Origin: Phycisphaeraceae bacterium
Lineage (GTDB): Bacteria > Planctomycetota > Phycisphaerae > Phycisphaerales > Zrk34
Assembly (NCBI GenBank): GCA_028282805.1
Contig: JANQHD010000054.1
Coordinates: forward strand, 1 to 64,000
Length of the DNA: 64,000 bases
Direction: 5' to 3'
Each line of letters begins with the position of its first letter. Position 1 is the stretch's first letter. Positions 59,678 to 61,656 of the stretch are shown here, piece after piece. A model generated the notes under the pieces. It had not been told where the DNA came from and did no database searches. It was given only the letters and a program-made list of their open reading frames with translations. A program made the position numbers and the translations under genes.

Positions 59678-59706
59678 TTGACGTGGGCGAAAGCCGGGGT
59701 GACAAT
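59678..59706 (+). promoter_or_regulatory. Sigma-70-type promoter before the multi-hairpin RNA
   Basis: TTGACG (59678-59683), a 17-bp spacer and GACAAT (59701-59706). Transcription would start near 59713. Confidence 0.55.
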
Positions 59707-59712
59707 GCCTTG

Positions 59713-59995
59713 TTCAACGCCGGGCCCGTTTTTGAGCGGGTCGCGGTGTTGGCCCATATAGGGTTTGATTGGAGCCGGATGAGTATGAATGTTTTGGTCC
59801 ACGAGAACGGCACGCACCGATGAGCCGCCACGCGACTCATCACGATCTGTGGCGTGCGGCGCGGGGTCATCGCCTCGGTTTGGGGGAGGAGGACGCGATG
59901 ACCTGACGGTCTGTTTCAGACCGTGCGTTCAACCCCTGGGCAGGGGTTCTCGTGGGCCACGGGCGCGGAAGCGCCGCCGTGGCCTTTTCTTTTTT
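59713..59995 (+). ncRNA. Candidate multi-hairpin structured RNA upstream of nusA
   Basis: About 283 nt without a credible ORF, between a promoter and a terminator. Hairpins visible: GCCGCCACGC/GCGTGCGGC (59824-59833 with 59852-59860, one bulge), GGTCATCGC/GCGATGACC (59865-59873 with 59895-59903), ACGGTCTG/CAGACCGT (59906-59913 with 59917-59924), AACCCCTG/CAGGGGTT (59931-59938 with 59941-59948) and the terminator stem. GATGAG (59819-59824) can pair with CTCATC (59836-59841) in competition with the first. A further imperfect stem lies at 59715-59751. It lacks the marks of tmRNA, RNase P RNA and SRP RNA. Confidence 0.65.
59955..59995 (+). terminator. Intrinsic terminator before nusA
   Basis: GGCCACGG (59955-59962) pairs with CCGTGGCC (59977-59984); inside, GCGC-GGAA-GCGC has a GNRA loop. 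The T-run TTTTCTTTTTT follows at once. It lies 102 bp before nusA and separates the RNA from the nusA-infB operon. Confidence 0.9.
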
Positions 59996-60096
59996 AAGGC
60001 CGTCGAACGAACGATGGATCACGCACGCCGACCGGGCGTGAGGCACAACTAAATAAGCCGTCAGGCGGCGGCGACAACCAAGGGATACCCAGGCTT

Positions 60097-61656
60097 ATGA
60101 ACCCACAGGAAATGCTCCGCATCATCGATTCGATCTCGCGTGACCGCAACGTGGACAAGGAAGCGCTGTTCGCCGACATCGAGCAGGCGATGGTGTCGGC
60201 CGCGCGCAAGCACTTCAACGTGGAAGACACCGAAGAGTTCACCAGCGAGGTCGACCGCCTGACCGGCGCGATCCACCTGTACCGCCACGAGGTGGAGATC
60301 CCGCTGGCCGAGCTCGGCCGCATCCCCGCGCAGACCGCCAAGCAGGTGATGATCCAGCGGTTCCGCGAGGACGAGCGGGCGAGCATCTTCGAGGAGTTCT
60401 CCGGGCGGGTCGGCGAGATCACCACGGGCACCGCGCAGCGCTACGAGGGCGGGGCGTTGGTCGTGCAGATCGGCCGGGCCGAGGGCTTCATGCCCCGCAG
60501 CGAGCAGATCCCCGGCGAGACGCACTCGCCCGGCGAACGCGTGCGCTGCATGATCCTCGACGTCCGCGACACCGGCAGCCAGGTGAAGATCGTGCTCTCG
60601 CGCGCCGCGCCGGAGTTCATCCGCCGGCTGTTCGAGGTCGAGGTGCCGGAGGTGTCGGAGCGCATCATCGAGATCAAAGCGCTGGCCCGCGAGCCGGGTC
60701 ACCGCACGAAGGTCGCGGTCAGCTCGATCGACTCGAAGGTCGACGCCGTGGGCGCCTGCGTGGGCGTGCGCGGCAGCCGCATCAAGAACATCGTCGACGA
60801 ACTCGCCGGCGAGAAGATCGACATCGTCCGCTGGAACGAGTCGTCGCAGGTGCTGATCGCCAACGCGCTTCGGCCGGCGGAGGTCGTGGAGATCTCGCTG
60901 TGCTTCGAGCTGGGCCGGGCGACCGTGGTGGTCAACGAAGACCAATTATCGCTGGCGATCGGCAAGCGCGGCCAGAACGTGCGCCTCGCCGCCCGGCTGA
61001 CCGGGTGGGACGTGGACATCCTCACCCCCAGCGAGTTCGCCAAGGGCCTGGACATCCTCGACGAGACGCTCAAGAGCATCGACGGCATCACCGAGGAGAT
61101 GGTCGACCGCCTCGCGGCGCTGGGGTTCATCACCGTGTTCGACCTCGAAGAGGTGGGCGCCGAGACGCTGGTCGAACAGCTCGGCGAGTTCGGCTTGGCG
61201 CTGGAGATCGCCCAGACCGCGGTGGACACCTGCTCGGAGAAGGCGAAGGTCGTCGCCGAGCAGCAGCAGCGTGACAAGGAAGAGGCCGAGCGCCGGAAGA
61301 TCGAAGAGGAAGCCGCGGCCGCGGCGGGCTTGGCGATCGACGACACCGTCGCGTCGATCCTCGGCATGCCCGGAGACGAAGACGCCGCCGAGGGCGAGGC
61401 GCCCGCCGCCGACGCCGGTGGCGACATCATCGACATGCTGCAACAGCAACAGCCCGAGGAAGACGACGAGCCGTCGGCCGACGAGGAGTCGACCAACGGC
61501 GAGCCGCTGGACGTGGCGATCGCCGAGGAGGCCGCGGAGGCCGAGGCGCCGATCAGCCCCGCCGAAGCGGAGATCGTCGCCTCGCAGGACGAATCGGAAG
61601 TCGCGCAGCTGGCGCAAGGCGAGCAGCTAGAAGACGAAGAAGAGCCGAAGGAATAG
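60097..61656 (+). CDS. nusA: Transcription termination/antitermination factor NusA
   Basis: Encodes 519 aa. The N-terminal RNA-polymerase-binding domain (residues 1-125) begins MNPQEMLRIIDSISRDRNVDKEALFADIEQAM. An S1 domain follows (about 130-200, GALVVQIGRAEGFMP), then two KH domains (about 205-340, GVRGSRIKNIVDELAGEKIDIVRW and AIGKRGQNVRLAARLTGWDVDI). A helix-hairpin-helix pair and a long acidic disordered tail (from about 400) end it. It controls pausing and termination. rimP, usually just upstream, is absent; infB follows. Confidence 0.96.
   Translation: MNPQEMLRIIDSISRDRNVDKEALFADIEQAMVSAARKHFNVEDTEEFTSEVDRLTGAIHLYRHEVEIPLAELGRIPAQTAKQVMIQRFREDERASIFEEFSGRVGEITTGTAQRYEGGALVVQIGRAEGFMPRSEQIPGETHSPGERVRCMILDVRDTGSQVKIVLSRAAPEFIRRLFEVEVPEVSERIIEIKALAREPGHRTKVAVSSIDSKVDAVGACVGVRGSRIKNIVDELAGEKIDIVRWNESSQVLIANALRPAEVVEISLCFELGRATVVVNEDQLSLAIGKRGQNVRLAARLTGWDVDILTPSEFAKGLDILDETLKSIDGITEEMVDRLAALGFITVFDLEEVGAETLVEQLGEFGLALEIAQTAVDTCSEKAKVVAEQQQRDKEEAERRKIEEEAAAAAGLAIDDTVASILGMPGDEDAAEGEAPAADAGGDIIDMLQQQQPEEDDEPSADEESTNGEPLDVAIAEEAAEAEAPISPAEAEIVASQDESEVAQLAQGEQLEDEEEPKE

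Follow-up and report, generated by a model that had tools for sequence, protein, structure and literature searches.

Organization of the leader upstream of nusA

In this analysis, we mainly focus on the DNA preceding the nusA-infB operon of a Phycisphaeraceae bacterium (Planctomycetota); the window, i.e., the whole stretch that was analysed, comprises 64,000 nucleotides (contig JANQHD010000054.1, positions 1 to 64,000). A leader containing two short upstream open reading frames (uORFs) lies between a promoter and an intrinsic terminator, followed by nusA and infB. One of these, uORF1, has 14 codons, and the other is a minimal ORF (a start, 0-2 codons and a stop). Each is preceded by a Shine-Dalgarno sequence (SD). 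The features are as follows:

59678..59706, + strand: sigma70-type promoter TTGACG-N17-GACAAT (TTGACG 59678-59683; GACAAT 59701-59706), 9/12 consensus matches
59715..59751, + strand: 5' hairpin CAACGCCGGGCCCG/CGGGTCGCGGTGTTG, from sequence and fold; a covarying 5' hairpin also occurs in cluster A1 (helix 1), the two not being aligned
59771..59823, + strand: uORF1 with SD GGAG (59771-59774), ATG at 59779 and TGA at 59821-59823, 14 codons (59779-59823), peptide MSMNVLVHENGTHR and stop; conserved
59796..59808, + strand: candidate antiterminator strand GGTCCACGAGAAC inside uORF1, 13 bp complementary to 59946-59958, the terminator foot
59819..59841, + strand: hairpin GATGAG..CTCATC with the uORF1 stop in its 5' arm; conserved and covarying in family f1 (helix 1)
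59865..59903, + strand: hairpin GGTCATCGC/GCGATGACC, its 3' arm holding the minimal-ORF start and its loop the SD of that ORF; from sequence and fold
59885..59906, + strand: SD GGAGGAGGA (59885-59893) and two-codon minimal ORF ATG-ACC-TGA (59898-59906), from sequence; conserved in relatives
59906..59924, + strand: hairpin ACGGTCTGTTTCAGACCGT, immediately 3' of the minimal ORF; from sequence and fold
59931..59948, + strand: hairpin AACCCCTGGGCAGGGGTT, from sequence and fold; competes with the candidate antiterminator for 59946-59948
59955..59995, + strand: intrinsic terminator GGCCACGG...CCGTGGCC-TTTTCTTTTTT (stem 59955-59984, T-run 59985-59995); conserved stem
60045..60085, + strand: CA-rich stretch, poor in G and containing ACAACTAAATAA and GACAACCAAGGGA; downstream of the terminator and upstream of nusA
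60097..61656, + strand: nusA (ATG 60097), first gene of the operon and presumed controlled gene
from about 61673, + strand: infB, next after nusA

A first-pass annotation of this DNA had reported the promoter (TTGACG-17 nt-GACAAT), the hairpins and the strong terminator before nusA, all of which are found where it placed them. Its description of the element as being without an ORF was mistaken, since both the 14-codon, SD-led uORF1 and a conserved SD-AUG-ACC-UGA are present, the latter reading GGAGGAGGA CGCG ATG ACC TGA in full (59885-59906; also written as GGAGGAGGACGCG ATG ACC TGA). The 286-nt RNA of the window has a predicted folding energy of -133.8 kcal/mol, with a z of -3.06 relative to dinucleotide-shuffled sequences. 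Related leaders (n=53) gave a mean structure z of -3.57, and of -2.51 when the terminator was removed, compared with -0.55 for control DNA.

Conservation of the leader and its linkage to nusA

Because the element diverges too fast for DNA similarity, related loci were collected through the NusA protein, and the DNA upstream of nusA was gathered from 110 Phycisphaerales loci. Dereplication kept 100 loci from the 107 of sufficient length, and the set was extended by 41 loci of other Phycisphaerae and by 19 of other planctomycete classes; the counts given below cover related loci, not independent events, and many loci come from metagenome-assembled genomes (MAGs). MAGs of Phycisphaerales also provide the best matches to the nusA of the window. 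A DNA similarity search found the leader as a single copy in its own genome and returned only one weak match, of 38 nt, across 60 relatives. That match (G034:C30:15864-15901, L002) is 84% identical to window positions 59840-59877 and belongs to another Phycisphaerales genome, where it lies on another contig, away from nusA.

The position upstream of nusA, which the first-pass annotation had proposed for a conservation check, is retained in nearly all relatives. At the start of the leader, a promoter with at least 9 of the 12 sigma70 consensus positions (the threshold for a call, promoter and terminator calls both being consensus based) is present in 50/71 relatives, against 2.4 expected, and in relatives with a promoter the median distance from it to the minimal ORF is 218 nt. 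Between terminator and nusA, a sigma70-type promoter was called in only 2/71 leaders, a frequency equal to chance (2.0 expected). With a promoter before the leader and none above chance after the terminator, nusA would be fed by read-through, unless a promoter of another type is used. If the element were instead a separate small RNA that adjoins nusA by chance or history, its own promoter, its strong terminator and its strong fold would be accounted for. We consider this reading very improbable, given the nusA synteny, the single copy, the SD-led ORFs and the lack of a promoter after the terminator; the same synteny, copy number and promoter distribution do not support the earlier suggestion of an independent housekeeping RNA. 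A control role for the nusA-infB operon, also suggested at that stage, is probable for a structured leader in this upstream position.

The description of the RNA as new was likewise borne out by searches of RNA families. Rfam, at gathering and relaxed thresholds, yielded nothing credible in the window and 35 related loci. 6S RNA (RF00013) had no match in the window and only a weak one elsewhere in the genome, and tmRNA was rejected as well (no ARAGORN prediction in the window and no Rfam match). The weak 6S-RNA-like match (G000:C51:10847-10966, L113; 28.7 bits, below the gathering score) is a candidate 6S RNA of this organism.

Conservation of the stems, on which the RNA interpretation had been made to depend, was confirmed in part. 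The individual hairpins show no sequence conservation; among near relatives, the terminator and the hairpin that holds the uORF1 stop are the only two that keep their position and show compensatory changes. A single order-wide RNA alignment fails; only clusters are alignable, and in two of them (family f1 and cluster A1) covarying helices were found. In cluster A1, 0/500 shuffles equalled the real alignment in covariation score or in percentage paired. From sequence comparison, the element is best described as a leader that attenuates transcription of nusA-infB and is kept across Phycisphaerales in sequence-divergent form.

A minimal ORF and a longer uORF in the leader

A recurrent feature of these leaders is the minimal ORF. 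A search from -350 to -100 before nusA, requiring a strong SD, a 4-10 nt gap, ATG, one codon and a stop, identified SD-AUG-NNN-stop with exactly one middle codon in 55/100 dereplicated leaders, where 0.8 were expected under a Markov model and 0 were found in control DNA from the same loci. Two middle codons occur in 6 of the 100 Phycisphaerales loci and three to five in 0. When GTG/TTG starts, weaker SDs and two-codon forms were allowed, a minimal ORF was recognized in 88/100 leaders, with ATG (71), GTG (11) or TTG (6) as the start and TGA (58), TAG (18) or TAA (12) as the stop; the middle codon specifies Thr, Gly, Arg or Ala in most loci.

An alternative is that SD-AUG-NNN-stop serves as an untranslated sequence motif, e.g., a protein-binding site. 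It often lies inside a hairpin, as in the window and in cluster A1, where the minimal ORF is likewise within a covarying hairpin (helices 3 and 4), and the predicted openness of its SD-AUG stretch does not exceed that of the remaining leader, both of which would suit such a motif. What varies is the start (ATG, GTG or TTG), the stop (all three), the spacer and the number of middle codons, while the frame and the stop stay. The persistence of an SD, a start and an immediate stop through this variation favours translation and argues for a minimal ORF that is translated rather than a fixed RNA motif, which leaves the untranslated motif quite improbable.

In other Phycisphaerae, an ATG-started ORF of 0-2 codons is present in 18/41 loci, against 1.4 expected. 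True start-stop ORFs (an SD followed by ATG-TAG) were observed upstream of nusA in five loci from other orders of this class (L167, L169, L141, L134 and L142). For the remaining planctomycete classes, AUG-stop occurs in 4/19 loci, with 0.6 expected if only ATG is considered; with GTG/TTG counted, the same statistic for other Planctomycetota is 4/19 versus 3.1 expected and not significant, so that the case for extending the minimal ORF to these classes is weak. In Escherichia coli K-12, the metY-rimP interval contains no minimal ORF with the same pattern, and a search of the open-licence literature found no paper that describes a leader of this kind with a start-stop or two-codon ORF.

uORF1 precedes the minimal ORF by about 75 nt. 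A search of the 200 nt that precede the minimal ORF in the 88 loci found an SD-led ORF of 5-25 codons at the place of uORF1 in 59/88 relatives (10.8 expected, maximum 17), with lengths peaking at 9 (22 ORFs) and 14-16 codons. The 9-codon form frequently ends in His-x-Arg or His-x-Gly, and the peptides otherwise differ between species. Both uORF1 and the minimal ORF are translated-looking in their sequence, and the two are the best-conserved features of the leader.

The terminator and a candidate antiterminator

A terminator lies 3' of the minimal ORF in 85/100 leaders, at a median of 101 nt before nusA (71 analysed), and in Phycisphaerales its stem has the conserved sequence GGCCACG/CGTGGCC. 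Together with the conserved ORFs upstream, it makes an attenuator with uORFs a well-supported, though sequence-derived, interpretation. A possible switch is offered by the strand inside uORF1, which could pair with positions 59946-59958, a segment that reaches into the start of the terminator stem. In 50 loci, pairing between the uORF1 region and the terminator foot of the same leader beat that of mismatched arms (0/2000 permutations as good), and the uORF1 region gave the best pairing with the terminator arm among six leader segments; the 5' part, the minimal ORF and the segment that follows uORF1 all paired with that arm at near-chance levels. Controlled for composition by shuffled segments, the signal is modest (mean z -0.46 +- 0.21; 8/51 loci below -2); in the window, 10 of the 13 antiterminator bp are compatible with the terminator, and in a thermodynamic model a ribosome blocking the minimal ORF did not consistently shift the predicted terminator. 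The uORF1-terminator foot switch is accordingly regarded as a candidate.

Downstream of the terminator, the interval before nusA carries CA-rich repeats: the motif ACAACYNRA is found there in 48/100 Phycisphaerales loci and in 0 at -400..-150. The repeats, which are possible NusA, Rho or S1 sites, presumably resemble the boxC ligand of Mycobacterium tuberculosis NusA. They are often tandem and were seen from -130 to -12 before nusA (L080, L107, L010 and others).

Loss of RimP and relationship to the rimP-leader

The first-pass annotation had also remarked that rimP is missing. RimP (PF02576), a ribosome maturation factor, is absent from this genome and 12 relatives (13/13), with 10/14 control genomes positive, which points to a probable lineage-wide loss.

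Naville and Gautheret (2010, PMC2965389) described the rimP-leader (the rimP family of Rfam, RF01770) as a terminator that acts prematurely, ahead of rimP-nusA-infB, and has a conserved GGGc...gCCC stem; an antiterminator was not visible, and they suspected NusA as the regulator. Feedback by NusA on the operon in E. coli and a terminator-only attenuator preceding rimP-nusA-infB are both documented (PMC2965389; PMC4448216), and work in Streptococcus agalactiae, like that in E. coli, points to NusA feedback. As in the rimP-leader, an operon containing nusA and infB is preceded in Phycisphaerales by an intrinsic terminator that is premature and has a conserved stem. Unlike the rimP-leader, the Phycisphaerales leader is long and structured with two uORFs, nusA is the first gene of the operon with rimP absent, and the stem reads GGCCACG...CGTGGCC, GTGGG..CCCAC being found in 0/100 loci. 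A GTGGG...CCCAC-TTT terminator directly before nusA occurs in 12/19 loci of other classes (L115-L133) and 11/41 of other Phycisphaerae (several of L134-L173), and in 0 of the controls. As these sister lineages carry the rimP-leader terminator before nusA, the Phycisphaerales element may be viewed as a variant of that attenuator in which the stem sequence appears to have been replaced. The covariance model RF01770 had no match in the genome analysed (G000) or in two relatives (G007 and G005), and in other planctomycetes it gave sub-threshold matches only, none at the listed nusA places. The 'rimP-leader' is hence uncoupled from RimP, planctomycetes retaining such a terminator before nusA despite the loss of rimP.

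These parallels bear on an alternative explanation, in which NusA alone reads the conserved terminator stem as feedback and the uORFs only retain ribosomes on the leader against Rho or decay, with no sensing. The conserved stem and the lack of an obvious universal antiterminator parallel the argument made for the rimP-leader (PMC2965389), and the CA-rich repeats before nusA could bind NusA or Rho. Binding of NusA to this RNA, as proposed in the first-pass annotation, may occur, in view of these repeats and of the NusA feedback suggested for the rimP-leader. Such a mechanism leaves unexplained both the limit of 0-2 codons on the second ORF and the two preferred lengths of uORF1, and we regard it as possible, if somewhat doubtful.

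A proposed model of attenuation by ribosome loading

Our preferred interpretation, with a probability of roughly 0.6, is a transcription-attenuating 5' leader of nusA-infB in which two short ORFs are loaded with ribosomes and the loading reports initiation capacity. Transcription would start about 390 nt before nusA and produce the folded leader, which would be translated at two very short ORFs, the 14-codon uORF1 and AUG-ACC-UGA. RNA polymerase would then meet the intrinsic terminator, and read-through would yield the nusA-infB mRNA. A ribosome at the minimal ORF would only initiate and terminate; since it would have nothing to elongate, loading of this ORF and uORF1 may report initiation capacity, that is, the supply of IF2, the product of infB. 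Efficient loading would keep the uORF1 segment from the terminator foot, allowing the terminator, aided by NusA, to end the transcript, and a shortage of initiation or of NusA would increase read-through and thereby restore IF2 and NusA.

An ORF of 0-2 codons can report initiation, termination or recycling, not amino acids or a peptide, and with infB in the controlled operon, the simplest idea is an autogenous control that senses initiation. We infer that the signal sensed is translation initiation (IF2) and/or NusA, IF2 being the logical candidate. A stricter form, a start-stop attenuator in which the leader of the operon for IF2 and NusA uses ribosome occupancy of the conserved 0-2-codon ORF to sense initiation or termination, with IF2 activity as the main input, is put forward tentatively. 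If true, it would represent a class of attenuators reading initiation rather than elongation. The conservation of the minimal ORF before infB makes this idea directly testable, and hardly a simpler probe of initiation and termination can be conceived than an ORF with one codon, or none, between start and stop. The findings bear on how bacteria set NusA and IF2 levels and on the signal to which the widespread attenuator of this operon responds, beyond the NusA feedback of E. coli.

Leader-peptide attenuators of the trp, tna and erm type share with this leader an SD-led short upstream ORF, a stop codon that lies within or next to a hairpin, and a terminator ahead of the first gene with no promoter after it. 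They differ in that the second ORF here, with its 0-2 codons, is too short for a peptide sequence or elongation to be sensed, and in that the uORF1 peptides vary among species apart from their length and the frequent end of the 9-codon form. Minigenes offer another comparison, and the two-codon ORF of phage lambda bar is presumably one example. In the axe-txe minigene, a very short SD-led ORF acts on expression (PMC8708949), a role that is here proposed from sequence. Compared with minigenes, the ORF described here is conserved over an order and its class, before a housekeeping operon and upstream of a terminator.
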